Both the position numbers and the translations under genes were made by a program. A DNA stretch of 64,000 nucleotides, from the NCBI GenBank assembly GCA_023264995.1, contig JAHFUR010000004.1, positions 102,921 through 166,920 of the forward strand. Direction: 5' to 3'. Under the pieces are notes generated by a model, which saw only the letters and a list, made by a program, of their open reading frames with translations, was not told the DNA's origin and made no database searches. The stretch is from Acidimicrobiia bacterium. Lineage in GTDB: Bacteria > Actinomycetota > Acidimicrobiia > Acidimicrobiales > AC-14. Below, one piece after another: positions 8,901-22,567 of this stretch; position 1 is the stretch's first letter; every line of letters starts with the position of its first letter.

Positions 8901-9849
8901 CGTCGCCGGCCCGCACCGTCGGGGCGGGCAGGAAGGCGCGGTCGGCGGCGTCGACCGCGGTGCGGGGCAGGGCCAGGGCCTCCACGTCGCCGTCAGGGAG
9001 CTGGGGCTCGGGGAGCGACCAGCGCCGCAGGGCGATGGTCGGGTAGAAGTCCCCCGGCGCCGGCGGCCCCAGCGCCGGGCCGTCGTCGGGGATGGTGAGG
9101 TCGAACACCAGGCCGAGGGCCCGGAGGAGCGCCGGGTGGTGGGCCAGGGCGGCCAGCACGCCGTGGACGTCGAGGCGGTCCGAGGTGGCCCGGGGGTCGG
9201 GGCGGCCCGGCCACGGCCGGTCGCTGCGGTCGGCCCGGCCCGGCTCCCGCACGGCCCGGAACCGGCGCAGGGCCTCGTCCACCGTCGGCGGGTTGGTGGC
9301 CAGCTCCTGGCGCCGGCGGGCCTCGAGTGGCTCGCGGTCGGCCAGGCCCACCCCGCCGAGGTCCCAGTGCCGGCGGTCCTCGTCGAACACCGCCGGGTCG
9401 GGCTCGCCGTGGCGGAGGCGGCCGGTGACCTCGCTCACCTGGCGGGCCGTCGGGACGCGGGCCGGGCTGTACAGGCCGATGTCGGCGTAGCTCTCCTGCA
9501 CCAGGCCGGCGAGGACGGCGGTCGGCGAGCTACGCACGGTGTGGCCCCGGAAGTCGTCGATGGCGAAGTCGTTGACCGGGAGGTCGGGCCGGAGCAGGGC
9601 CTCCCACAGGTCGGGGCGCAGGCCCCCGGTGTCGACGGCCGCCGACCAGGGTTGGCCGTCGATGTCGAAGTACAGGGTCGGGCCGCCGTCGACCAGCCGT
9701 TGCGTCCAGGCCAGCATCCCCGGGAAGTCGGCCAGCACGGCCCCACCCGCCAGCCGGGGGAACACGGCCACGCTCAGCCGGCGGAGGCCGGGGTCGCCCG
9801 GCCCGGGGCCGCCGGGGACGGCGATGAGGACGAGCGTGGTTTCCGCCAT
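5833..9849 (-). CDS. Very long conserved protein of unknown function (second of a pair)
   Basis: 1338 residues with no signal peptide and no membrane segment that I can see. The sequence alternates beta-type and loop segments; short landmarks include PDLPVNDFAIDDFRG (about 90-105), ALGLVFDLTIPDDG (about 240), YRVRLRAVDVGGGG and RYLRFEPVAAP in the middle, and DTRHHLVRYRAQA and PEAVAGADGVYLRQFQRSVD later. The overall look matches my memory of a widespread family of 1000-1400-residue bacterial proteins without known function; I cannot name a Pfam domain. Its ATG at 9849 overlaps the upstream gene's TGA (ATGA), so the two are coupled and probably act together. The extra ten residues in the ORF track (to 9879) are not needed. 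Confidence 0.7.
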   Translation of the reverse strand: MAETTLVLIAVPGGPGPGDPGLRRLSVAVFPRLAGGAVLADFPGMLAWTQRLVDGGPTLYFDIDGQPWSAAVDTGGLRPDLWEALLRPDLPVNDFAIDDFRGHTVRSSPTAVLAGLVQESYADIGLYSPARVPTARQVSEVTGRLRHGEPDPAVFDEDRRHWDLGGVGLADREPLEARRRQELATNPPTVDEALRRFRAVREPGRADRSDRPWPGRPDPRATSDRLDVHGVLAALAHHPALLRALGLVFDLTIPDDGPALGPPAPGDFYPTIALRRWSLPEPQLPDGDVEALALPRTAVDAADRAFLPAPTVRAGDVPRGGVYQGAVLLDPALWSVVPLDVEGAVTKLLSLAERDPAGTAAPDVGVGLPALRSDGLGLASLTQAAEALLAFDRAARIDAALRGAGPEEVLTAAHLTQGYRADVWRESRNSWFSLHRRAQEYDVGGIAWPAEDEGFATAALAQPPEPHRTLDTAEVLVRWTGWSLSVPRPVQPIGREVVPGSAGTEPEGAPPATSPLRVVTSRPAPRSLPGLRFGDRYRVRLRAVDVGGGGLLPDAGSAGAGLPVEPVGRRYLRFEPVAAPVIVTAGATPRLVIDSANLSPADDLVPTAATAVAHLLPPKATVDLVERHGCLDDATGRPRPAAAVHALLAARDVAVDRAATIDDPGIPHLPDPLARGVVLRGLPGVPDGWFGTVDAAGVLRFDENLPIPFDGAEAGAVALPFTGAWPDPVPVKVALVEGSGLPTWDHAQRTLTVGLAKGRRADVAVSSLLGAGDLALLGVWEWFAARLDRDVAAAAGFGGSVVAGDALTDRVATRAHITRLALEGGHWALTPAATLRLVHQVAQPVGAPSLRRFTERDHLPEPDPGTGPFDVVRAAGAHTAELTGGLLVDLPSTGSVTVRAAWTDPVDVPALGPPSRAQRDEAVGRVEIPEGAGVGDLLDAPGTQPTMVVGAGALAWSGEGRIAAVDVARSCPLVHTIGDTRHHLVRYRAQAVSRDAAEQPAGTETTRTSDPVEVHVPSCARPDPPVVVEVVPAFAWDRQHSTDVRTSVRQGRTVRVYLERPWFSSGDDELLGVVCLPAAEALGPRLCNLRDRVSLWGLDGLHGGGDLVPDAPRRWSFPEAVAGADGVYLRQFQRSVDIAGHTVHYDAGTDRWFADVVLDAKLAYTPFVRLVLVRFQPYSVPGREISAPVVVDHLQLSPDRAVTVATLPDDPHRRRVVVTGVGPAAVGIGFGARSFRTGVTVAVEQAAPDLGPELGWEPAPASVATVAGAAQSPPTQAVLWRGEVHLADPAGAGLRLLVTEREYYPSGDGRLPVIFGGLLTGVVPTASRIVFAEAIPLG

Positions 9850-12800
9850 CAGGCGAAGGCCTCGACGTAGTCGTCCCACGCCGCCGGCGTGACGAGCATG
9901 GCGAAGTCGGGGTCGCCGCCGTCGGCCCCGAACGAGCGCTCGACCGAGAGCGACACCGACTTGGAGATCCCGCAGACCGACACGCTGACCTTGACGGTGG
10001 CCGACCCGTGCACCTTGTCGTGAGCCAGGTCGTAGCCCAGCTCCAGGCGGAACACGACCGACACGGTGACGATGCCCAGCACCGACACGTAGCCCGACGC
10101 CTCGAAGAACCCCCCGATCACCGCCGACGGCTTGTCACGGTCGTAGGTGAAGTAGATCCCGGCCATGATCCGGACGCCGCCGGAGGCGACGCCGATGTCG
10201 AGCTGGAACTCGCCGCCGAACTCGATGGCCGCGTCGAGGGCGCGGATGCCCGCGGTGTCGACCTCCAGCTCCAGGTAGCCGCCGCCGCCGAGCAGGCTGA
10301 TCGTCAGCACGAACGGGTGGTGGCGGTCGGCCACCCCGAAGCGCAGCGCCGGCCGGCCGTCGACCAGCGGCAGGGTGACGCCGGTGGTGAGGCGGACGTC
10401 GTGCAGCGAGAAGACGGCCAGGCCGAAGGGCGGCAGGGCGATGGCCTCGTCGACCCTGACCGCGCCGGCGTCGACGGAGATGGTCGGCCCGCCCGGGCCG
10501 CCCAGGAGCGACGAGAACGCCTGCAGCTTCTCCTGCACGTCGGCCAGGAAGCCCAGCGGCCCGACGAACTCGACGGCGCCGAGCTTCACGTCGACGGTGG
10601 TGGCGTCGCTCCCGGTGCTGGTGAAGCGGAACTCGGCCACGTCGACGCGGACGGCGCCGGCGATGGTGACGGCCAGGTGCCTGACCACGCCGGTCACCGT
10701 GGTCGTGCCGGTCGTGCCGTCGAGCGATCGGCGGATGGTGGCCCGCAGGTCGAGGCTGGCCGCGGCCCGGTCGACCTTCACGAACGGCGGGAGGTCGAGG
10801 GCTGCGCCGTCGATGCTCGGCGCCCAGCTCAGCTCGGTCACGACCGCGCCCGGCTCCTGGTGGCTGGCCACCTTGGGCGCCTGGCCGGCGATGGCACCCG
10901 GGTTGACCAGCAGTTTCAGGGGCACGACGCCGAACAGCGTGGCGTTGCCCGGGAAGAACCCGGCGGGGTTGAACGTGCCCGCGACCGCCGAGGCCACCGT
11001 CGGGCCCAGCTCGCGCGACAGGGCGCTGGGGGCGAACTCGGGCAGGGCCACGCCGCCGGCGGCGGCCGCGGTCAGGCCCAGGCCGGCCAGCCCGGCGGCC
11101 TCGGGGGCGACGGTGGCCCACACGCCTGCGCCGGCGGGGCCCGACGCCACGTAGCCCGGGTCGAAGCTGATCCGCCGGCGGGCGTGCTCGGGCCCGGACA
11201 GCTTGGCGATGTCGGGCACGACCACGTCGGCGCCGGCGACGATGGGCACCCACGCGTTGGGCCCGCCGGCGCCGGCCGTCGCCGCCAGCGTGAACGAGTT
11301 GAGGCCCACCGCCGTCTCGGTCCGACCGGGTGCGGCCGGTGCCGCCATCGTGACCCGCTGGCCGCCGACGGTCGCGACGGGAGCGGCCTTCGTATAGGCG
11401 TCGGCGACCGCCGCCATGTCGCCCGCCTTCTCCCACATCCGCATGGGGACGAAGATCATCGGCGTCGTGAACGTGAACCGTTCCGGGGCGGCGTCGGTTG
11501 AGGCGCAGGCGAAGGCCACGGGCACGCTCGACGTTTCCGTGCTCACCTGGATCCAGAACGCCTGGGTACCGCCCACCTGGGTGGTGGCCGGGTCGGTCAG
11601 GTGGGGGGTGCGCTCGGTGAGCACCTCGAACCGCCGGCCGAACGGGAAACCCCTGGCCTGGGCGGCGCTCAGCCGGATCTCGCGTAGGCGCTGGCGGCGG
11701 ATGACCAGGGTGTACAGGAAGAGGTTCGAGACGGGTGCCCCGCCGCCGCCGGGGCGCTCGATGCGCCGCTCCATGACGTCGATCCGGACGGCCCGGTGCC
11801 CGGTCGGGAAGAGCGCACCCTCGGTGGCGATGACCACGTACTGGTCTCGGCCGAACACCGCGTCGTGCGACCACAGGCTCAGGTCGGTCGGCTCGGCCCG
11901 CTCCTTGGGCAGGAGCGCGCCGAGGTCGACCGCCGTGGCCAGGACGGCCGACACTTCGTCGCCGTGGCGCTCGAGCGCTTCGGCCAGGCGACGGTCCCGT
12001 TCGCCGGCCGTGCCCGGTCCACGCTCCACCAGGGTCGCGTCGACCTGGAGCACGGCGTGCTCGAGCAGGAGCCGGACCCGTTCGAAACGGTCATGGGGCG
12101 CCGGCACTGCGCTGTCGTCCCACTGGCCCTTCAACCGGACGGACGCACCCAGTGCCGACAGGAACAGCCGGCTGGCCTCGGCCGGGCGGGGCTCGAAGGC
12201 CCGGTGCCGGGACACCAGCTCGTCGCCGACCCACCGGCGCAGGGCCCGCGGGACCGCGACCCGCTCCCGGACCAGGCCGGCGCCGGCGCCGGTCCCCCCG
12301 CCGCCGGTCCCCCCGCCGCCGGCGCTGGGCTCGTAGACCTCGTAGCCGCTGAAGCCGGACATGAGCGTGACCAGCTCGTGGCGGTGGGCGGGATTGGGCA
12401 GGCTCCGGAACGGCACCATGGCGTCGAGGTCGGCCCAGGTGCGGTCCGGTGACCGCCAGTCGGGCGACCAGACGGCCCGGACCGCCACCGGCTCGGCCGA
12501 GCTGGCCGGCGTCACGGCTCCGCCGTCCTGGTGGCCGAGGGCGGCCCGCCACAGCTCGGTCCGGCCCGCGCGGGCCACCGCGGATGCCGCCGTGGTCCAG
12601 CCGCTCCCCGCCTCCGGTGACATGACCAGGCGCCAGGGGAGCTCGATGGCCGTCTCGTGCGCCGCCGGCGGCGCGATCGGCGGCGGGGCGGCGGGCGTCG
12701 CCCGGCTGGCCGGGGGGACGACGAGGGTGAACCGGTGCCAGGCCAGGAGGTCGTCGATCGTCAGCGGGATGGGCAGCAGAGCGTCGGGGACCGAGAACAC

Positions 12801-13091
12801 CACCCGGCTCGGTCCGGCCAACCGGGACCGCGCCGCGCCGGGCGGGTCGGGGACCTCCGAGCCGTAGGCCGGGGGCGGTGGCGTGGCGCACCCGTCGGGG
12901 CTGTCATCGCGATAGGCCTGCTCGGCGATGTGCTGGGGGGGCAGGGTGAAGACGAGCAGCCGTTCCGGGCCGCCGGCGCCGTCGGCGTCCACCACCGGCC
13001 CGCCAGCCGCTGGTTGCACCGACAGGCCGACCAGCTCGACGTCGAGGACGACCAAGTCGTCCGGTCGCAGAACCCGCAGCTTCTGGCCCAC
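9849..13091 (-). CDS. Very long conserved protein of unknown function (first of a pair)
   Basis: 1080 residues from the GTG at 13091; the ORF stays open to a TTG at 13106. No signal peptide. The N-terminal half is mixed, with RVLRPDDLVVLDVELVGL at the start; near residue 270 is a low-complexity Gly/Thr linker. The C-terminal third is strongly beta-patterned with alternating hydrophobic residues (for example GGFFEASGYVSVLGIVTVSV, SATVKVSVSVCGISKSVSLS), as in an elongated beta-sandwich or fibre domain. I prefer GTG 13091 because a perfect TTGACA -35 sits 17 bases before a TTGACT that ends nine bases upstream of it. Function unknown; inference from coupling is that it works with the 1338-residue partner. 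Confidence 0.68.
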   Translation of the reverse strand: MGQKLRVLRPDDLVVLDVELVGLSVQPAAGGPVVDADGAGGPERLLVFTLPPQHIAEQAYRDDSPDGCATPPPPAYGSEVPDPPGAARSRLAGPSRVVFSVPDALLPIPLTIDDLLAWHRFTLVVPPASRATPAAPPPIAPPAAHETAIELPWRLVMSPEAGSGWTTAASAVARAGRTELWRAALGHQDGGAVTPASSAEPVAVRAVWSPDWRSPDRTWADLDAMVPFRSLPNPAHRHELVTLMSGFSGYEVYEPSAGGGGTGGGGTGAGAGLVRERVAVPRALRRWVGDELVSRHRAFEPRPAEASRLFLSALGASVRLKGQWDDSAVPAPHDRFERVRLLLEHAVLQVDATLVERGPGTAGERDRRLAEALERHGDEVSAVLATAVDLGALLPKERAEPTDLSLWSHDAVFGRDQYVVIATEGALFPTGHRAVRIDVMERRIERPGGGGAPVSNLFLYTLVIRRQRLREIRLSAAQARGFPFGRRFEVLTERTPHLTDPATTQVGGTQAFWIQVSTETSSVPVAFACASTDAAPERFTFTTPMIFVPMRMWEKAGDMAAVADAYTKAAPVATVGGQRVTMAAPAAPGRTETAVGLNSFTLAATAGAGGPNAWVPIVAGADVVVPDIAKLSGPEHARRRISFDPGYVASGPAGAGVWATVAPEAAGLAGLGLTAAAAGGVALPEFAPSALSRELGPTVASAVAGTFNPAGFFPGNATLFGVVPLKLLVNPGAIAGQAPKVASHQEPGAVVTELSWAPSIDGAALDLPPFVKVDRAAASLDLRATIRRSLDGTTGTTTVTGVVRHLAVTIAGAVRVDVAEFRFTSTGSDATTVDVKLGAVEFVGPLGFLADVQEKLQAFSSLLGGPGGPTISVDAGAVRVDEAIALPPFGLAVFSLHDVRLTTGVTLPLVDGRPALRFGVADRHHPFVLTISLLGGGGYLELEVDTAGIRALDAAIEFGGEFQLDIGVASGGVRIMAGIYFTYDRDKPSAVIGGFFEASGYVSVLGIVTVSVVFRLELGYDLAHDKVHGSATVKVSVSVCGISKSVSLSVERSFGADGGDPDFAMLVTPAAWDDYVEAFA

Positions 13092-13100
13092 CTGCGGGGT

Positions 13101-13129
13101 AGTCAACCCGGCCGGTCGGCGGGTGTCAA
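13101..13129 (-). promoter_or_regulatory. Candidate promoter of the giant-protein pair
   Basis: On the minus strand TTGACA (13129-13124) is followed after exactly 17 bases by TTGACT (13106-13101). The -35 is perfect; the -10 is weak (three consensus bases). If used, transcription would start close to the GTG at 13091. Confidence 0.35.
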
Positions 13130-13134
13130 CCGAT

Positions 13135-13176
13135 CTGGCTGCAGTGACATGCCTATTGGCCCGCCAGTGCAGCCAG
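13135..13176. repeat. Inverted repeat between the cupredoxin gene and the giant-protein operon
   Basis: Arms CTGGCTGCA (13135-13143) and TGCAGCCAG (13168-13176) are perfect 9-bp complements with a 24-base spacer. It lies downstream of the cupredoxin stop and upstream of the giant-gene promoter on the same strand. It could be a weak terminator or a regulator site; there is no U-tract. Confidence 0.4.
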
Positions 13177-13196
13177 AACGGGTGGTGCGCGGGTGG

Positions 13197-13613
13197 CTAC
13201 CCCACCCGGACCGTGCCCTGCATGCCGTAGGCCCAGTGACCGGGGAGGTGGCAGCCGAAGAGGACCGTGCCGCCGGCGGCCCCGAACCGGTAGGTCGTGA
13301 CCGCGGTCTGCCCCGGCGGGACCGAGACCTCACCCGGCCGGTCGCCGTGGTGGGCCTCGGTGCCGGCCTCGTGGTGGTCCTGCACCGCCTGGTCGCCCAC
13401 GATCAGCTCGTGGGCGATCGGGTCGGTGTTGCGCACCACGAAGCGCACGGTCTGGCCGGGCCGCACCCGGATCTCACTGGTGGAGAACTGCGAATGATGG
13501 ACGGTGAGGTCGACGGTCAGCGCCGGCGGCGCCCCGGTCGTGCCAGCGGCGCCGGCGCCCGCGCAGGCGCCGGCCAGGGTGGCCACGGCGGCCAGGCCGA
13601 CCAGCAGCTTCAT
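13197..13613 (-). CDS. Secreted/lipid-anchored cupredoxin (type 1 copper protein)
   Basis: 138 residues. The N-terminus MKLLVGLAAVATLAGAC is a signal sequence, probably of lipoprotein type with Cys17, though the lipobox is imperfect. The cupredoxin copper site is readable: His68 (PIAHELIVGD) and the C-terminal loop CHLPGHWAYGM giving Cys121, His126 and Met131. A His-rich loop (residues 80-89) lies between. Such proteins carry electrons outside the membrane or bind copper. The ATG overlaps the DUF2330 stop (ATGA), so it is the last gene of the thiG-thiH-led operon. The long upstream ORF extension is shadow. Confidence 0.82.
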   Translation of the reverse strand: MKLLVGLAAVATLAGACAGAGAAGTTGAPPALTVDLTVHHSQFSTSEIRVRPGQTVRFVVRNTDPIAHELIVGDQAVQDHHEAGTEAHHGDRPGEVSVPPGQTAVTTYRFGAAGGTVLFGCHLPGHWAYGMQGTVRVG

Positions 13614-14668
13614 CGCCGGCGGGCCGCCACCGCCACGGCCACGCCGCCGGCGACGACGGCGAGGGCGACGCCGCCGGCCAGCGCCCAGGGGACGACCGAG
13701 GTGCCCTTCGGCGCGACGACCACCGCCGTGGGCGCGGGGCCGGGGCTGGGCCGAGCCAGCCCGGCCGCCACCGGCGACGGGGTGCCGGCGCCCGAGGCAT
13801 CGACGGCCAGGTCGTAGGTGAGCTGGGTGGGCAGGGCGTCGACCTTGAGGTAGCTGAGCCACATCGAGGGCGGTACCCAGTCCATGCCCTTGTCGGTGCG
13901 GAGGTCGGTCAGCAGCGTGGAGGTGGCCGGGCCCTGACGGTCCAGGACCAGGCCAGGGGCCTTGTCGCCCGGCAGGAGGGTGGGGCGGGAGTCGGTCAGC
14001 AGGAAGACGTCGGCATTGATGCGCTCCCCCGGCTGCAGGCCGACGCCCAGGATGCGCAGCGGCACCCACGGGTTCGGCGTCGGGATGGTGAGGTGGACCG
14101 GCGTCCCGTCGCCCAGGGCCACGCCCTTCTGGCGGGCGGCGTCAGCGTTGAACTTGGCGGCCAGGAAGATCGGGCTGCGCTGGGCATAGAAGTCGAGCAC
14201 CTCGGGCGTATCGGGGGTGAGCAGGAAGCCGTTCTTGGTGGCCCACTCCCCCACAGCCTGGCCGCCGCCCTTGAGCACGGTGATGTCGAGGGCGTCGATG
14301 CGGGTCTCGAGCAGCACCACGGCGGCGTCGGACGCGGCGCCCGAGTTCGCCGACGACGCGGCCCGGGCGAACAGGGGCTGCGGCGTGACCTCACGCACCA
14401 GGCGCTGCAGGGTCCAGTCGCCGCCCCGCTCCACGCTGGTGGGCACGTCGGGCAGCGGGATGATGGACCCGAACTCCCCGCCGGCGCCGGCGAACTTGAA
14501 GGCGGTGACGTAGTGCTCGATGCCGCCGTGCCACGCGGCCAGCGTGGTGGTCCGGACCAGGTTCACCGACCCGTTGCGCCCGATCAGGCCGCCGCACGCC
14601 AGCGCCGGCCCCGCGCTCATCACCGTTGCCGCCACTCCGATCCCTACCGACATCAGGGCCTTGCGCAT
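13610..14668 (-). CDS. DUF2330 family exported, membrane-anchored protein
   Basis: 352 residues. A signal peptide (MRKALMSVGIGVAATVMSAGPALA) is followed by mature CGGLIGRNG, the start of the DUF2330 family. Other family landmarks are AAWHGGIEHYVTAF, FGSIIPLPDVP and ERGGDWTLQRL. After a Pro-rich linker, a C-terminal hydrophobic helix (VPWALAGGVALAVVAGG) and AARRR anchor it, leaving the domain outside the cell. Function is unknown for the family. Its Shine-Dalgarno AGGAGGTG is five bases from the ATG but lies in the 3' arm of a perfect 9-bp hairpin (separate entry). The stop overlaps the cupredoxin start. Confidence 0.85.
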   Translation of the reverse strand: MRKALMSVGIGVAATVMSAGPALACGGLIGRNGSVNLVRTTTLAAWHGGIEHYVTAFKFAGAGGEFGSIIPLPDVPTSVERGGDWTLQRLVREVTPQPLFARAASSANSGAASDAAVVLLETRIDALDITVLKGGGQAVGEWATKNGFLLTPDTPEVLDFYAQRSPIFLAAKFNADAARQKGVALGDGTPVHLTIPTPNPWVPLRILGVGLQPGERINADVFLLTDSRPTLLPGDKAPGLVLDRQGPATSTLLTDLRTDKGMDWVPPSMWLSYLKVDALPTQLTYDLAVDASGAGTPSPVAAGLARPSPGPAPTAVVVAPKGTSVVPWALAGGVALAVVAGGVAVAVAARRR

Positions 14669-14671
14669 TCG

Positions 14672-14702
14672 CCCACCTCCTGTGGCTTGGTTCGGAGGTG
14701 GG
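14672..14702 (-). promoter_or_regulatory. Hairpin sequestering the Shine-Dalgarno of the DUF2330 gene
   Basis: In the minus-strand RNA, CCCACCUCC (14702-14694) pairs perfectly with GGAGGUGGG (14680-14672) across a 13-base loop. The 3' arm contains the Shine-Dalgarno, three bases before the AUG at 14668. The upstream gene's stop codon is eight bases before the 5' arm, so a terminating ribosome would open the stem. This suggests translational coupling or conditional translation. Confidence 0.55.
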
Positions 14703-14709
14703 ACGACCG

Positions 14710-15843
14710 CTACCCGGCGTCTGGTTCCGGGATCCTGACCTTTCTGCGATTGTGGACGAAGAACAGGATGAACCCGCCGGCGATGAGGACGGCCGTGACG
14801 ACCGCCAGCACGACGACACCCATGGTGCCGGCCCGGGGGATCGGCGGCGGCGGCGGGCCGAGCACGACGGTGACGTGGCCCTCGATGTGGGCGTTGGGGG
14901 CGTCGCCGAAGGGGAACGTGCGGCACGTCATGCGGCAGCGGACCACGACGCTGTGGCCCGTCTCGCTGACCACGACGAGGTCGTTCTCGTCGATGCGCAC
15001 CTGGCTGAACGAGCTGGCCGGCATCCGCCAGATGGTGTCGCTGCCCTCGGTGGGCGAGCCGGGCGAACGGCGGTCGGCCACGTACGCCGTGCCGCCCCGC
15101 CCGATGAACCCGGGCGGCGTGAACCCCACGCTCTCGACGCCGATGTCCGGCCCGGAAGCCAGCCCGGGGTTGATGAGGACACCGCTGGTGCCGTCGAAGC
15201 GGATGAAGATCACGTCGCCGCTGTTCTCGTCCACGCCGATCAGGTCGCCGCCGTGCTCGCCGAAGAGCTGGGGGGCCACCTCCATCCCGCCCTCGATGAG
15301 GGGGGCGTTCTCGGTGAGGGTCTTGAGCCGGCCCCGGCAGTCGATCGAGAAGATGGCGGTCTTGGTGCCCTTGCGGCCGGCGACGAGGAGCTGGTTGGCG
15401 AACCGGCCGGTGCCGTCGAAGGCGATGCCGGTGAGCAGGTCGACCGGCGGCGTGTTCACGAAACGGGTCGCCTGGCCGTCGACCGCCACCCGGACCACGC
15501 CCTGCGGGGTGCCGGCGCCCAGCTCCAGGGCGTAGACCTCGCCGGCGTCGAAGCGGCAGCCGGCGCCGGGCACGTCGAGCCCGGGGGCCATGGCGATGTA
15601 GCTCTCCGGGCCCGGGTCGGTCGAGTAGTTGCCGAACGGCGCCGGCTTGCCCCCGTCGGGCTGGACGAGGAAGAGCTTGCCGGCGGCCGCGGCCACCAGC
15701 GCCCCGTCGGGGCGAGGGCCGACCACGTCGACCACACCGGGCAGCGACACCCAGTGCTCCCAGTTCGGCGGCGCCGGCGCAGTCGTCGTCGGCCCGGCCT
15801 GCGCCGCGAACAGCCCGATGACGAGGAGGAGGGCGGCGATCAT
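14710..15843 (-). CDS. Exported membrane-anchored protein, probably beta-propeller-like
   Basis: 377 residues: signal peptide ([17 protein letters not shown]), an extracytoplasmic domain of about 310 residues and a C-terminal transmembrane helix (GVVVLAVVTAVLIAGGFILFF) followed by basic residues. The domain has repeated short strands of the type found in propellers (LLVAGRKGTKTAIFSIDCRG, DLIGVDENSGDVIFIRFDG), with paired cysteines (CRMTC) near the end. I do not recognise a named family. Its ATG overlaps the thiH stop (ATGA), so it is co-translated with the thiamine genes, although any functional link is unclear. Confidence 0.72.
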   Translation of the reverse strand: MIAALLLVIGLFAAQAGPTTTAPAPPNWEHWVSLPGVVDVVGPRPDGALVAAAAGKLFLVQPDGGKPAPFGNYSTDPGPESYIAMAPGLDVPGAGCRFDAGEVYALELGAGTPQGVVRVAVDGQATRFVNTPPVDLLTGIAFDGTGRFANQLLVAGRKGTKTAIFSIDCRGRLKTLTENAPLIEGGMEVAPQLFGEHGGDLIGVDENSGDVIFIRFDGTSGVLINPGLASGPDIGVESVGFTPPGFIGRGGTAYVADRRSPGSPTEGSDTIWRMPASSFSQVRIDENDLVVVSETGHSVVVRCRMTCRTFPFGDAPNAHIEGHVTVVLGPPPPPIPRAGTMGVVVLAVVTAVLIAGGFILFFVHNRRKVRIPEPDAG

Positions 15844-17009
15844 GACCTGGAGCGGGCGCCGATGGTGTCCTTCCAGACCGGCTCGTAGCCGGCGGCTCGC
15901 AGGGCGGCGGCCACCTCGGCCGGCGACCGGGTGTCGCTCACCTCGAACTGCGGCTCGGCCTCACCGGGCTCGCTGTAGCCGCCCGGCTCGGTCTGCGACC
16001 CGGCCGACATCTGGGTCACACCCAGCTTGCACGCGGCATCCCGGAACGCGGCCGACTCCCGGGTCGACAGGGTGATGCCCACGTCGGGGAGCACGAGCCG
16101 CAGGGCGCAGAGGATCTGGACGTACTCCCGGTCGGTGACGGGCCGGGCCGGCTCGAAGTCGCCGGCGGCAGGGCGCATCCTCGGGACGGAGACGGCCACG
16201 TCGCACCGCCACCAGCGCCGGAGGAGCGCCGAGGCGTGGGCGGCCAGGGCCACGACATCGGACCGCCAATCGGGCTCCAGCCCGAGCAGGGCGCCCAGCG
16301 TGAGCGACCGCATGCCCGCCTCGGCGCCCCGGTCGGGAGCGGCCAGGCGCCAGTCGTAGTTGCGCTTCTTGCCCTTGAGGTGGACCGCGGCGTAGGTGCT
16401 CCGGTTGTAGACCTCCTGGTAGACGACCAGGCCCTCGCAGCCGGCCTCCACCAGCCGGCGGTACGTGGCCGTGTCCCACACCTGGGTCTCCAGGGAGATC
16501 GACGGCACAGTGGCGGCCAGGGCAGTCACGCAGTCGACCAGGTAGTCCTTGGACACGATGCGGGCGTGCTCGCCGGCCACCAGCAGCAGGTGGCGGAAAC
16601 CCCGGTCGGTGAGCGTCCGGGCCTCGGCCGCCACCTCCGCGGGCGAGAGGGTGCGGCGGGCGATCTCGTTGCCGGCCGAGAACCCGCAGTACGTGCACGT
16701 CGACACGCACTCGTTGGACAGGTAGAGCGGGGCGAACAGCCGCACCACCCGCCCGAACCGGCGCACGCTGGCGGCGTGGGCGGCGACGGCCAGGTCCTCC
16801 AGGCGGTCGGCGGCCGCGGGCGAGAGCAGGGCGCCGAGGTCGTCGAGCGACCGCCGGGTGGCCCGCAACGCCCGGTCGACGTCGCCGGCCGTGGCCGAGG
16901 CGGCGAGGGCCAGCGGGCCGGCCAGGTCGGTGGCCAGGAAGTCCGCCGCCGCCGTGTTGTCGGGGACACCATCGGGCCGGGAGTCGAGCGTGACAGTGAC
17001 CGCCGTCAC
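15840..17009 (-). CDS. thiH: 2-iminoacetate synthase (tyrosine lyase) ThiH
   Basis: 389 residues. This radical-SAM enzyme cleaves tyrosine to dehydroglycine for thiazole synthesis. The cluster-binding CX3CX2C is Cys101, Cys105, Cys108 in [11 protein letters not shown]. Other family features include [23 protein letters not shown] and the C-terminal [13 protein letters not shown]. The GTG at 17009 overlaps the thiG stop (GTGA). Most actinobacteria I know of use glycine oxidase ThiO instead, so an oxygen-sensitive ThiH is notable here. ThiS, ThiF and ThiE are not in this window. Confidence 0.93.
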
Positions 17010-17773
17010 GAGAGAAAGCCGGTGAGGGGCGACGACGCCTCGGCCGCCCGGCCCACCGCCGCCAACCCGGCCACCCGGGCCTGGCGGCCGGCCACGACCG
17101 CCATGCGGAACGCGTCGGCCATGACGGCCGGGTCGCCGGCGGTGCCGATGGCCGTGTTCACCAGCACCGCGCCGGCACCCATCTCCATGGCTTCCGCGGC
17201 CTGCGACGGGGCGCCGATGCCGGCGTCGACCACCACTGGCACGAACGACTGCTCGATGATGATCTCCAGCGCGGCCCGGGTGCGCAGGCCCTGGTTGGAC
17301 CCGATCCACGAGCCGAGGGGCATGACCGTGGCGCAGCCCGCCTCCTCCAGCCGCTTGCACAGCACGGGGTCGGCGTTGACGTAGGGCAGGACGGTAAAGC
17401 CCTCCCGGCAGAGGATCTCGGCCGCCTTCAGCGTCTCCACCCCGTCGGGCAGGAGGTAGCGGGGCTCGGGGGTGATCTCCAGCTTGATCCAGGTGGGGTA
17501 GCCCCCGCTGCGGGCCAGCCGGGCCAGGCGCACGGCCTCGTCGGCGTCGTCGGCCCCGCTGGTGTTGGTAAGGAGCAGCACCTTGGCCGGGTCGACGGCG
17601 TCGAGGATGTCCTCCTCGGCCGTCACGTCGATCCGGCGGAGCGCGACGGTGACCATCTCGGTGCCCGAGGCGTCGATGGCGGCGGCCAGGGACGCGTTGG
17701 AGGGGAACTTCCCGGTGCCGAGGAAAAGGCGGCTGGAGAACTCCCGGCCGGCGATCACGAGGGGGTCATGCAT
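17006..17773 (-). CDS. thiG: Thiazole synthase ThiG
   Basis: 255 residues, the normal length. ThiG condenses 1-deoxy-xylulose 5-phosphate, dehydroglycine and ThiS thiocarboxylate into the thiazole phosphate of thiamine. Family landmarks: [12 protein letters not shown] at the start, the Schiff-base lysine in TWIKLEI (Lys97), [23 protein letters not shown] and [20 protein letters not shown]. The ATG at 17773 has no Shine-Dalgarno; a TAAGGT -10 box eight bases upstream suggests a leaderless message. There is no room for a TPP riboswitch in the 19-base divergent gap. Confidence 0.96.
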
Positions 17774-17780
17774 CCCGGCC

Positions 17781-17787
17781 TACCTTA
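17781..17787. promoter_or_regulatory. Shared symmetric -10 box of thiG and the DUF2203 gene
   Basis: The heptamer TACCTTA reads TACCTT on the plus strand, six bases before the DUF2203 GTG, and TAAGGT on the minus strand, eight bases before the thiG ATG. Both distances fit leaderless transcripts, so one element may drive both genes in opposite directions. Confidence 0.5.
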
Positions 17788-17792
17788 CGTGG

Positions 17793-18134
17793 GTGCGCTA
17801 CTGGACCGTCAGCGAGGCCCGGGCCTACCTGCCCCGCGTCAAGGAGCTGGCCGAGTGCATCCGCCACGCCGCCCGGCTCCGGGCCGGGGAGGCGGGCTCG
17901 ACCAACGGGAAGCGGGCGCCGATCCTCGACGCCCAGGAGGCGCTGGAGGAGATGCAGGCAGGTGACATCATCTTCCGTGACGCCATGACCGGCCTGCTCG
18001 ACTTCCACGCCAAGGGCGCCGACGGCGTCGTGTACTTCCTCTGCTGGCGCCTGGACGACGGTGAGCTGGGCTTCTGGCACCTCCCGTCGGAGGGTTTCCC
18101 CGGCCGCAAGCCCCTCCCGAGGGACCCCGAATGA
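17793..18134 (+). CDS. DUF2203 family protein
   Basis: 113 residues, soluble. It matches my memory of DUF2203: RYWTVSEARAYLPRVKELAE at the start, then GDIIFRDAMTGLLDFHA, VVYFLCWRLDDGELGFWH and SEGFPGRKPL at the end. The helical first half with many charged residues may be a coiled coil. No function is known. The GTG at 17793 is the only start next to the family's conserved N-terminus; it has no Shine-Dalgarno but a -10 box six bases upstream. The stop overlaps the ATG of a 30-codon ORF. Confidence 0.8.
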   Translation: MRYWTVSEARAYLPRVKELAECIRHAARLRAGEAGSTNGKRAPILDAQEALEEMQAGDIIFRDAMTGLLDFHAKGADGVVYFLCWRLDDGELGFWHLPSEGFPGRKPLPRDPE

Positions 18135-18223
18135 AGACCCGTACGCTCATCGTCCTGGCCATGGTCGCCGGCTTGGCCATCCTCGTGGCCTTCACCCTCC
18201 AGATCACCATGGCGGCCAAGTAG
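18131..18223 (+). CDS. 30-residue single-span membrane peptide
   Basis: This ORF is too short for the ORF track. It starts at an ATG overlapping the DUF2203 stop (ATGA) and reads MKTRTLIVLAMVAGLAILVA with the tail FTLQITMAAK. Three basic or polar residues precede a hydrophobic stretch of about 19 residues, giving a credible one-pass membrane peptide, N-terminus inside. Tight coupling and the clean hydrophobic pattern support it as real; function unknown. Confidence 0.55.
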   Translation: MKTRTLIVLAMVAGLAILVAFTLQITMAAK

Positions 18224-18258
18224 GCGCCGGCTCTGACGACCACCCATCCCGCCGCCGG

Positions 18259-18264
18259 TAGGCT
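18259..18264 (+). promoter_or_regulatory. Probable -10 box of a leaderless lpdA transcript
   Basis: TAGGCT lies six bases before the lpdA ATG at 18271. No Shine-Dalgarno is present. A CTGACG at 18233-18238 is a possible but too distant -35. Confidence 0.5.
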
Positions 18265-18270
18265 CGGGCC

Positions 18271-19665
18271 ATGGCCGAGGAGTTCGACCTTGTCGTGATC
18301 GGCGGAGGCCCGGGCGGGTACGCGGCCGCCCTCTATGGCGCCGCCGCGGGCATGTCGGTGGCGGTGGTGGAGAAGGAGAAGGTGGGCGGCACCTGCCTGC
18401 ACCGCGGTTGCATCCCGGCCAAGCACTACCTGGAAACGGCGTCGGTGTTCCGCACGGTGGCCGGCGCCAAGGAGTTCGGCGTCAACGCCGACCAGCCCCA
18501 GCTCGACCTGGGGGTGTCCCGGGCCCGCAAGCAGAAGGTGGTCGACCAGCTCTGGAAGGGCCTTCAGGGGCTCATGCGGAAGCGCAAGATCACGACCTAC
18601 GCCGGCACCGGCTCCCTCGGCGCCGGCCACCTGGTCACCGTCGACGATGCGGCCGGCACCGTGCTGCACGGCACCCACGTCGTCCTGGCCACGGGTTCGG
18701 TGCCTCGCACCATCCCCGGCTTCGAGCCTGACGGCACCACGATCCTCACCTCGGACCACGTGCTCGAGCTCGACGTGCTGCCGGCGTCGGCGGCGGTCAT
18801 CGGCGGCGGGGCCATCGGCTGCGAGTTCGCCTCCATGCTGAGCGACCTCGGGTGCGCGGTGACGCTGCTCGAGGCCCTCCCCAAGCTGCTGCCGGGCTGC
18901 GACGCCGACGTGGTCGACGTGGTGGTCAAGTCCTTCACCCGCCGGGGCATGACGGTGCGCACCGGGGTAACGGTCGAGGGCCACGAGCGGTCCAACGGGC
19001 AGATCGCCGTGAGGCTGGGCGACGGCAGCACGGTCACCGTCGACACGGTGGTCGTGTCCGTGGGCCGCCGGCCCCTCACCGACGGGTTGGGCCTGGAGGG
19101 CACCGCAGTGGAGGTCGACAGCAGGGGCTTCATCTCCGTCGACAACCGCCAGCGCACGGCCGAGCCCGGCGTCTATGCGGTGGGCGACGTGGTGCCCACC
19201 CCCCAGTTGGCCCACGTGGGTTTTGCCGAGGCCATCGTCGCCGTGCGCGACATGTTGGGCGAGGACCTCGAGCCGGTCGACTACGGCAAGGTCCCGTGGT
19301 GCATCTATTGCCACCCCGAGGTGGCCTTCGCCGGCCTGACCGAGCAGGCGGCGCGCGATGCCGGCCACGAGGTCGTCGTGTCCAAGCACTCGTTCAACGC
19401 CAACAGCCGGGCCATGATCATCGGCGAGGCGGAGGGCCTGGTGAAGGTCATCGCCGAACGGCGGCCCGACGGCACGGCCGGTCCGATCCTGGGCGTCCAC
19501 ATGGTCGGCCCGTGGGTCACCGAGCAGCTCGGCGAGGGTTGGCTGTCGGTGAACTGGGAGGCCACGCCGGCCGACATGGGCCAGCTCATCCACCCGCACC
19601 CGACACTGTCCGAGACGTTCGGCGAGACGGTCCTGTCGCTCACTGGAAGGGGACTGCACGGCTGA
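18271..19665 (+). CDS. lpdA: Dihydrolipoyl dehydrogenase (E3)
   Basis: 464 residues. E3 reoxidises the dihydrolipoyl group of E2 with FAD and NAD+. The N-terminal FAD fold is VVIGGGPGGYAAA; the redox disulfide is Cys42/Cys47 in GGTCLHRGCIPAK; the NAD fold is AAVIGGGAIGCEFASML; and YAVGDVVPTPQLAHVG binds the FAD ribityl. The C-terminal active-site His-Glu is in HPHPTLSETFGE. The stop overlaps the next gene's ATG (TGATG), so E3 and E2 are co-translated. Confidence 0.95.
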   Translation: MAEEFDLVVIGGGPGGYAAALYGAAAGMSVAVVEKEKVGGTCLHRGCIPAKHYLETASVFRTVAGAKEFGVNADQPQLDLGVSRARKQKVVDQLWKGLQGLMRKRKITTYAGTGSLGAGHLVTVDDAAGTVLHGTHVVLATGSVPRTIPGFEPDGTTILTSDHVLELDVLPASAAVIGGGAIGCEFASMLSDLGCAVTLLEALPKLLPGCDADVVDVVVKSFTRRGMTVRTGVTVEGHERSNGQIAVRLGDGSTVTVDTVVVSVGRRPLTDGLGLEGTAVEVDSRGFISVDNRQRTAEPGVYAVGDVVPTPQLAHVGFAEAIVAVRDMLGEDLEPVDYGKVPWCIYCHPEVAFAGLTEQAARDAGHEVVVSKHSFNANSRAMIIGEAEGLVKVIAERRPDGTAGPILGVHMVGPWVTEQLGEGWLSVNWEATPADMGQLIHPHPTLSETFGETVLSLTGRGLHG

Positions 19666-20984
19666 TGGCCGCCACCGAGTCATTCAACGTCGTGATGCCG
19701 CAACTCGGCGAGACCGTCACCGAGGGCACCATCACCCGGTGGTTCAAGAAGGTCGGGGACCAGGTCGTCGAGGACGAGCCGCTCTTCGAGGTCTCGACCG
19801 ACAAGGTGGACTCCGAGGTGCCGGCCGCCTCCGGCGGCTACCTCGCGGAGATCCTGGTCGAGGAGGGGGAGACGGTCGACGTCGGTGCCCGGCTCGCAGT
19901 GATCGGCGTCGCCCCCGGCTCGGGCAACGGCGCCGCGCCAGCGCCGGAGCCGGCCGAGGCGCCCGTCGCGGCGGTCCCGCCCCCCGTGGCCCCGCCGGAG
20001 GTCGTGCCCGCGCCCGAGCCGGTGGGACCGGCGCCGGAGGCCTCCGGCAACCCCAGCCGCAAGGTCCTGTCGCCCCTGGTCCGGCGGCTTCTGGCCGACA
20101 ACAACCTGGACGCCGACGAGATCGAGGGCACCGGCATCGACGGGCGGGTCACCCGCAACGACGTGATGGCCCACCTCGACAAGGGCGGCGCCCGCGCCGG
20201 CGCGCCCAAGCCCGCCGCCGCCCCCACCCGGACCGCCGTCGCGCCGGCGGTCGTGCCCGCACCCCGCGCCGGCGCCGACGAGGTCATCCCCTTCACCAAC
20301 ATCCGCAAGCGCACCGCCGAGCACATGGTGCGGTCGCAGGCCACGTCGGCCCACGTGCTGATCGGCATGGAGGTCGACTTCGACGGCGTCGACCGGGTCC
20401 GGCTGGCCGAAAAGGACGCGTTCAAGGCCGAGGAGGGGTTCTCCCTCACCTACCTGCCCTTCGTGTCCCGGGCCGTGGTCGACGCCATCCGCGACTTCCC
20501 CCACGTCAACGCGTCGGTCGGTGACAACGCGCTGATCGTCCACCGCGCCGTCCATCTCGGCATTGCCGTGGACATCAACTTCGAGGGCCTGATCGTCCCC
20601 GTGGTCCACGATGCCGACGGCAAGCGCATGCGGTCGATCGCCCGGGAGATCTCCGACCTGGCCGGGCGCGCCCGCAGCAAGAAGCTCAACGCCGACGAGA
20701 TCTCGGGCAGCACGTTCACCATCACCAACCCGGGTGGCTACGGCACGTTCTTCACCGCGGCCGTCATCAACCAGCCCCAGGTGGCCATCCTCTCCACCGA
20801 CGGCGTGCGCAAGCGCCCCGTCGTGGTCCAGCTCCCCGACGGGAGCGACGCCATCGCCATCCACCCGGTGGGCACCCTGGCCCTCACCTTCGACCACCGG
20901 GCCTTCGACGGCGCCTACGCGTCGGCCTTCCTGGCCCGCTGCCGCGACATCATCGAGACCCGGGACTGGTCCCAGGAGCTGTGA
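19665..20984 (+). CDS. sucB: 2-oxoacid dehydrogenase E2 (dihydrolipoyl acyltransferase)
   Basis: 439 residues. Domains in order: one lipoyl domain with the lipoylated Lys47 in STDKVDSEV; an Ala/Pro-rich linker (about 85-130); a peripheral-subunit-binding domain starting KVLSPLVRRLLADNNLD (about 132-170); a second linker; and the catalytic domain with DHRAFDGAYAS near the C-terminus (catalytic His). It could serve 2-oxoglutarate, pyruvate or branched-chain 2-oxoacid dehydrogenase, so the symbol is tentative. AAGGGGA precedes the ATG. Its stop overlaps the GTG of the LipB-LipA ORF, which makes its cofactor. Confidence 0.9.
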   Translation: MAATESFNVVMPQLGETVTEGTITRWFKKVGDQVVEDEPLFEVSTDKVDSEVPAASGGYLAEILVEEGETVDVGARLAVIGVAPGSGNGAAPAPEPAEAPVAAVPPPVAPPEVVPAPEPVGPAPEASGNPSRKVLSPLVRRLLADNNLDADEIEGTGIDGRVTRNDVMAHLDKGGARAGAPKPAAAPTRTAVAPAVVPAPRAGADEVIPFTNIRKRTAEHMVRSQATSAHVLIGMEVDFDGVDRVRLAEKDAFKAEEGFSLTYLPFVSRAVVDAIRDFPHVNASVGDNALIVHRAVHLGIAVDINFEGLIVPVVHDADGKRMRSIAREISDLAGRARSKKLNADEISGSTFTITNPGGYGTFFTAAVINQPQVAILSTDGVRKRPVVVQLPDGSDAIAIHPVGTLALTFDHRAFDGAYASAFLARCRDIIETRDWSQEL

Positions 20985-22567
20985 GCCTGGCCGCACCGGC
21001 GGGCGCGGCCGGCGCACCGCTCCGGGCTCGCTGGCTCGGACGGGCCCGCTTCACCGACGCCCACGCCCTGCAACGGGCCCTGTTCACGGGTACCACCGAC
21101 TCGTACCTGCTCCTCCTGGAGCACCACCCCGTCTACACCGTCGGCCTGCGGGGCCCGCTCGACCACCTGCGGGTGCCCGCCGGCGACCTGGGCGCCGACC
21201 TCGTCGCCACCGACCGGGGCGGCGACGTCACCTGGCACGGGCCGGGCCAGCTCGTCGGCTATCCCATCGTCTCCACCACCGCCTCGCCCAAGGACCACGT
21301 CCGGGCCGTCGAGCAACTGGTCATCGACGTGTGCGCCAGCCTCGGCCTCCCCGGTCTCGGTCGGGCCGAGGGGGCACCCGGCGTCTGGGTCGACCCCGCC
21401 GGCGCCCGCCCCCGCAAGATCTGCGCCATCGGGACCCGCCGGTCGAGGGGCCGGACCATGCACGGCTTCGCCCTCAACGTCGACCCGGACCTGTCGTGGT
21501 TCGACCGGATCGTGCCGTGCGGCATCGCCGACCGGGGCGTGACGTCGCTCGCCGCCGAGGGCATGACGGTCGACATGCGCACCGTCGTCGACGCGGTCAT
21601 CGAGGCGGCCGCCGGCCGGTGGGGCGACGGCACGGTCGACCGGGCCGACGTGTCCTGGGAGCGGGAGACGCCGGCGGGCATGCCCGTGGCCACCCGCAAG
21701 CCCGAGTGGCTCCGGGTCAAGGTCGACCTGGGAACGGGGTACCGCGACGTGAAGCGCACCATGCGCTCGCGCCAGCTGGTCACCGTCTGCGAGGAAGCCG
21801 GCTGCCCCAACATCTACGAGTGCTGGCGGGACGGCACGGCCACGTTCATGATCAACGGCGAGCAGTGCACCCGGGCCTGCGGGTTCTGCCAGGTCGACAC
21901 CAGCAAGCCGATGCCCGCCGACCCGGCCGAGCCCGAGCGGCTGGCCGACGCCGTCGCCGAGATGGGCCTGGCCCACGCCGTCATCACCGCCGTGGCCCGC
22001 GACGACCTGCCCGACGGCGGCGCCGGCGGGTTCGCCGAGTCCATCCGGGCCGTCCGCCGGCGGAACCCGGCGACCGCCGTCGAGGTGCTGGTCCCCGACT
22101 GCAAGGGCGACCCCGGTGCCCTGGCCACCATCTTCGACGCCCGGCCCGACGTGCTGAACCACAACCTGGAGACCGTCGCCCGGCTCCAGCGCCACGTGCG
22201 GCCGTCGGCGTCCTACGCCCGGAGCCTTTCGGTGCTGGCCCGCGCCGCGGCCGCCGGCCTGGTCACCAAGTCGGGGCTCATCCTCGGCCTGGGCGAGTCG
22301 GAGGACGAGGTGCTGGCCGCCATGGTCGACCTCCAGCGGGTGGGTGTGTCCATCCTCACCCTGGGCCAGTACCTGCGCCCGTCCGCCGCCCACCTGCCCG
22401 TCGCCCGGTGGTGGGCGCCGGCGGAGTTCGACCGGCTGGCCGCGGCCGGGCGGGCCATGGGCTTCGCCCATGTCGAGGCGTCACCCCTCACCCGGTCGAG
22501 CTACCACGCCCGCCAAGCAGCGTCCGCGGCCACCCCTGTCGAACTGGTGACACGAACGGGGCGTTGA
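20981..22567 (+). CDS. lipBA: LipB-LipA fusion: octanoyltransferase plus lipoyl synthase
   Basis: 528 residues in one uninterrupted ORF. Residues about 1-225 are LipB, which moves octanoate from ACP to target lysines: RGGDVTWHGPGQLVGYP (79-95), catalytic Lys146 (RKICAIG) and Cys180 (IVPCGI). Residues about 238-528 are LipA, the radical-SAM sulfur-inserting enzyme: auxiliary cluster Cys270, Cys275, Cys281 (VCEEAGCPNIYECW), SAM cluster Cys296, Cys300, Cys303 (CTRACGFC), and the C-terminal RSSYHA whose Ser ligates the auxiliary cluster. The linker is under 20 residues. An internal ATG (residue 234) could start LipA separately, but no Shine-Dalgarno is evident. The GTG start overlaps the E2 stop. 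Confidence 0.9.
   Translation: MSLAAPAGAAGAPLRARWLGRARFTDAHALQRALFTGTTDSYLLLLEHHPVYTVGLRGPLDHLRVPAGDLGADLVATDRGGDVTWHGPGQLVGYPIVSTTASPKDHVRAVEQLVIDVCASLGLPGLGRAEGAPGVWVDPAGARPRKICAIGTRRSRGRTMHGFALNVDPDLSWFDRIVPCGIADRGVTSLAAEGMTVDMRTVVDAVIEAAAGRWGDGTVDRADVSWERETPAGMPVATRKPEWLRVKVDLGTGYRDVKRTMRSRQLVTVCEEAGCPNIYECWRDGTATFMINGEQCTRACGFCQVDTSKPMPADPAEPERLADAVAEMGLAHAVITAVARDDLPDGGAGGFAESIRAVRRRNPATAVEVLVPDCKGDPGALATIFDARPDVLNHNLETVARLQRHVRPSASYARSLSVLARAAAAGLVTKSGLILGLGESEDEVLAAMVDLQRVGVSILTLGQYLRPSAAHLPVARWWAPAEFDRLAAAGRAMGFAHVEASPLTRSSYHARQAASAATPVELVTRTGR

Follow-up and report, generated by a model that had tools for sequence, protein, structure and literature searches.

Why would the ribosome site of a gene for a putative envelope protein be enclosed in a perfect hairpin, and which RNAs would carry that hairpin? 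The question is raised by a DUF2330 gene in the window (the whole stretch of DNA that was analysed, 64,000 nucleotides), and a literature search found no paper on DUF2330.

Gene context and structure of the hairpin

The DUF2330 gene (13610..14668, minus strand) encodes a protein of 352 aa with a match to Pfam PF10092 (E = 1.9e-13), in which an N-terminal signal and a C-terminal membrane segment can be recognised by eye. Its stop codon overlaps (ATGA) the start of a cupredoxin (plastocyanin/azurin-like) gene (13197..13613, minus strand; Pfam PF00127, E = 5.4e-9), which adjoins DUF2330 in nearly all relatives as its conserved downstream partner. Together, DUF2330 and cupredoxin make up a conserved two-gene envelope unit, at 13197-14668 and at loci L002-L057. 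The cupredoxin gene is followed by a 1085-aa ORF (9849-13106, minus strand) with no Pfam match.

Upstream of DUF2330 lies the gene row thiG-thiH-orf377. The last of these genes (14710..15843, minus strand; 377 aa, without match in Pfam and NCBIfam searches) is a possible source of read-through, separated from DUF2330 by a terminator-free gap of 41 nt. It adjoins DUF2330 only in the three members of the genus (G000, which is this genome, G001 and G002; a search for more members found none, and the family comprises 10 genomes). The one-to-one synthesis of two exported proteins, put forward in the preliminary description of this DNA, does not hold generally, since it is the overlapping cupredoxin gene downstream that is conserved as a partner.

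Read 5' to 3' on the minus strand, the UAG stop of the upstream gene (14712-14710) is followed by CGGUCGU, the 5' arm CCCACCUCC (14702-14694), the 13-nt loop GAACCAAGCCACA (14693-14681), the 3' arm GGAGGUGGG (14680-14672), CGA and the AUG of DUF2330 (14668-14666). The stem buries the Shine-Dalgarno (SD) sequence AGGAGG (14681-14676), seven bases 5' of this AUG. The perfect 9-bp stem over the SD, as first described, is confirmed both by the sequence and by ViennaRNA, which predicts exactly these pairs plus a UCG/CGA extension past one bulged U (fold z = -2.54 versus shuffles). The upstream stop is indeed close to the stem, but at seven bases instead of the eight originally given.

The exact inverted repeat occurs a single time in the 3.8-Mb genome. 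When the 60 nt upstream were shuffled, a stem of at least 9 bp over the SD was obtained in 0.095% of cases, a chance of about 0.001. Moreover, of 32 putative strong-SD starts drawn from the genome, with the background taken from the window and the fetched loci, the DUF2330 leader alone exceeds 5 bp (1/32). Strong SDs being many, one or two such stems per genome could arise by chance, and evidence from conservation is therefore needed. The stem was also considered as an intrinsic terminator, a reading ruled out by the absence of a T run after it.

It had further been suggested that a signal might bind the stem. Nothing indicates a ligand, and an Rfam search of 9000-21000 at gathering threshold gave zero matches. 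Many RNA switches have a stem that hides the SD as their output; nevertheless, a ligand- or temperature-sensing switch is given only the faintest of chances here, considering this Rfam result, the absence of a conserved sensor domain, the divergence of the loop within the genus in both length and sequence, and the stability of a 9-bp G-C-rich stem, which is probably too high for a simple thermometer.

A predicted ECF-type promoter over the 5' arm

A predicted stress-type promoter of the ECF class, overlying the 5' arm and missed by the preliminary description, is seen on lining up the leaders of relatives. The comparison took in DUF2330 loci of 60 related genomes as well as of GTDB contigs, and GGAAC(C/T)-N15-17-CGTC was present in 41 of the 49 distinct leaders, versus 0.26 expected from shuffles. 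Elements of the CGTC type at -10 are known to characterise ECF sigma promoters, and the motif as a whole presumably resembles the mycobacterial SigM promoter consensus. Its fixed spacing between a -35 element and a CGTC -10 element is that of a putative ECF-sigma-dependent promoter.

An A stands three bases past CGTC in 90% of the motif-bearing leaders. Furthermore, a start signature is formed by base 8, a C in 61% of the 41 leaders, and base 9, an A in 54%, and in five leaders the first ATG lies 8 or 9 bases past CGTC, as predicted for leaderless mRNAs. Because signature and leaderless ATGs point to the same place, transcription would start at about base 9 after CGTC. An ATG eight bases after CGTC is found at L010, L018, L027 and L038 (DUF2330) and at L120 and L131 (lipoprotein), whose mRNAs are probably leaderless, and leader length inside one regulon ranges from 0 to about 30 nt. 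The leaders of L044, L046 and L051 contain another hairpin, of the GGCTC/GAGCC type, which lies 5' of the SD and close to the inferred start.

At the locus under study, the predicted -35 element GGAACC (14723..14728, minus strand) falls in the final codons of the upstream gene, and the -10 element CGTC (14702..14705, minus strand) ends with the first base of the hairpin 5' arm, CCCACCTCC (14694..14702, minus strand). The position of this CGTC and the base-9 rule together place the inferred start at G14693 (minus strand), the first base past the 5' arm, which would therefore lie between the -10 element and the start. A transcript from this promoter should begin in the loop (14681..14693, minus strand), which would form its 5' end, and should keep only the 3' arm with the SD, GGAGGTGGG (14672..14680, minus strand; from the sequence and the fold prediction), without hairpin.

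Searched genome-wide, the broad motif GGAACC-N16-18-CGTC is at chance level (56 versus 50 in the control), so that the motif is informative only when made stricter or when it stands before a gene. The strict form GGGAACC-N16-17-CGTCNWA occurs at 15 sites in the 10 genomes of the family, versus 0 for the reversed-pattern control, and these sites precede DUF2330, anti-sigma-like, DUF4349 and lipoprotein genes. In the order as a whole, it was found in 90 of 148 genomes, far above the reversed control, with a gene start within 90 bases at 28 of the 40 distinct strict sites examined. In this genome, a strict site lies 28 bases before a DUF4349 gene (G000:C7:1436-1466, L119), and strict-type sites before DUF4349 genes occur in G005 and G006 as well.

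The anti-sigma-like genes (an HPD.. start and a C..C motif, with no Pfam match) directly follow an ECF sigma gene, itself preceded by a protein-kinase gene, and in seven family genomes (G000-G006) the motif stands before the anti-sigma-like gene beside the ECF sigma gene. In this genome the site, at G000:C68, reads CGGAACT-N17-CGTC-CAA. A scan upstream of 30 sigma-factor loci gave no convincing site, because the site sits downstream, before the anti-sigma-like gene. The row of protein kinase, SigM-like ECF sigma and anti-sigma-like genes is seen at G000:C68 (loci L093 and L144), with the promoter at the end of the sigma gene; at G000:C68 the anti-sigma-like gene is cut off by the contig end. 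The best NCBIfam match of the sigma protein is SigM, below the cut-off. The presence of the motif at the sigma/anti-sigma locus is the pattern to be expected of an autoregulated ECF promoter and, from the shared motif and this context, we infer that the SigM-like ECF sigma reads the DUF2330 promoter. A literature search found no paper linking DUF2330 or DUF4349 to sigma factors.

Read-through RNA, promoter RNA and conservation of the stem

Two kinds of RNA would thus have to be distinguished, and folding predictions, which leave out ribosomes and co-transcriptional folding, separate them in the genus. From read-through to promoter RNA, the predicted probability that the SD is unpaired rises from 0.17 to 0.68 in G000 and from 0.00 to 0.56 in G001 and G002 each. 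G003 behaves alike (0.17 to 0.72), and G004, G005 and G006 (L008, L005 and L006) have no such predicted switch in SD openness. With a start only two bases earlier, the predicted value for promoter RNA of G000 falls to 0.38. In all three members of the genus, then, the stem is predicted to sequester the SD in RNA initiated upstream, and the putative promoter overlies the 5' arm, so RNA initiated there would lack it.

Conservation of the stem had been proposed as a check on its function, and the outcome depends on the depth of the comparison. The stem is kept in 3/3 genus genomes, at seven bases from the stop in each, but not family-wide: it shrinks to 6 bp in G003 and to 5 bp in G004 (TCCCC/GGGGA), and it is absent in G005 and G006 although both keep the promoter and AGGAGG, which on the criterion originally set counts against the first interpretation. 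Covariation, also proposed as a check, is thin in three genomes, with one C-G to U-G change and with mismatches toward the stem base (one in G001, two in G002). Pairs were counted in a fixed register, as MAFFT misplaced the start codon when given the seven short leaders. In the genus, 8/9 columns of the 5' arm are identical versus 7/17 in the promoter spacer (P between 0.0008 and 0.02 according to the reference rate chosen, with two promoter-bound columns allowed for).

These data bear on the leading alternative, namely that the stem is a functionless by-product in which a C-rich stretch between -10 and +1, with its fixed A, happens to complement a strong SD. The promoter itself prefers A at base 3 with C close by, strong SDs are G-rich and hence pair with C-rich stretches, and the stemless G005 and G006 retain both elements. 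The by-product reading is nonetheless judged unlikely, if still to be taken seriously: arms sampled from the promoter columns reach a 9-bp stem with the DUF2330 SD in only 0.005% of draws (0.4% with G-U), shuffled leaders rarely form such a stem, as indicated above, and the genus has conserved the arm better than the neighbouring spacer. When all leaders are considered, pairing of the -9..-1 region is slightly better with the SD region of the same leader than with SD regions taken from other genomes, an excess which is weak without the genus (P = 0.012 with G-U, 0.11 without).

The stem is strong where a close upstream gene runs in the same direction, but the three kin genomes amount in effect to one or two observations. 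In G003 and G004 the upstream gene is seemingly divergent, judging by eye and by codon-position composition; in G005 it is co-directional, yet the stem is absent. In read-through RNA, the geometry would allow a terminating ribosome to open the stem, as originally proposed, but the transcript of the conserved ECF-type promoter should lack the hairpin altogether. For the same reason it is improbable that DUF2330 is made mainly from polycistronic RNA, with ribosomes terminating upstream opening the stem and so tying two exported proteins together. The invariant distance of seven bases in 3/3 genus members and the gap without terminator would suit such coupling; the fixed promoter spacer, however, also accounts for that distance, and the upstream gene is found beside DUF2330 in the genus only.

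Finally, the inverted repeat could act as DNA, as an operator bound by a dimeric regulator over the start region of the promoter. The distance between its arm centres is 22 bp, roughly two turns of the helix, and the repeat overlaps the promoter; against this, it occurs once in the genome, its 3' arm is already explained by the SD, and no comparable repeat is present in G005 and G006, which makes an operator highly improbable.

Proposed mechanism and comparison with known systems

The reading preferred here, by a narrow balance of probability, is that the SD-masking hairpin of the DUF2330-cupredoxin envelope operon silences read-through mRNA and is bypassed by the promoter. With the ECF sigma factor active, RNA polymerase would initiate at or near G14693, giving a leader of about 25 nt in which the 5' arm is missing and the SD is free. 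RNA reading through from thiG-thiH-orf377, which is likely in the genus judging by layout, would carry both arms, the stem hiding the ribosome site, and DUF2330 would be off or low from such folded RNA, except where a ribosome terminating at the upstream stop opened the stem. Coupling and silencing can coexist in the same leader. The further step of regarding the hairpin as an insulator of a chromosomal stress operon, in which the -10 to +1 DNA of the sigma promoter encodes the silencing strand, so that only RNA initiated by this sigma factor can be translated well and read-through from the metabolic row is ignored, is tentative and held at somewhat less than even probability.

If true, this would be a compact means of keeping a gene unresponsive to its neighbours, with promoter DNA serving also as the antisense arm that locks translation. 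Independently of this, DUF2330 is placed in a regulatory setting: a predicted, small ECF-sigma regulon, which also includes an anti-sigma-like gene and genes for DUF4349 proteins and lipoproteins, and which is predicted to span an order of mostly uncultured Actinobacteria.

Several known systems share parts of this arrangement. Operon coupling by SD-masking stems likewise has a stop codon just 5' of the stem that hides the next SD; at DUF2330, in contrast, coupling would be made unnecessary by the predicted internal promoter, and the neighbour upstream is no conserved partner. As regards the promoter, CGTC spans -13 to -10 in the Tt-RpoE1 promoter (PMC3397946), near the spacing inferred here, and a GGAAC -35 element is known for actinobacterial SigE promoters (PMC10012870). 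The DUF2330 set resembles Tt-RpoE1 and other ECF promoters of the CGTC type in its -35 element with central AA and its CGTC -10 element; it has its own spacer, A three bases past CGTC and target genes, and its sigma factor is assigned by genome context.

The closest layout is that of the phage T4 lysozyme gene e (also I-TevI, soc and 49), where long early transcripts from upstream carry a stem hiding the ribosome site. A nearby late promoter overlies the DNA that encodes the 5' strand, so that its transcripts are missing this strand and are translated well (PMC3014915). The same combination of an SD-masking stem and a promoter over its 5' arm is predicted at DUF2330, with the difference that gene e uses a phage late promoter, whereas the DUF2330 envelope operon is chromosomal and would be served by a bacterial promoter, predicted to be of the ECF-sigma type.
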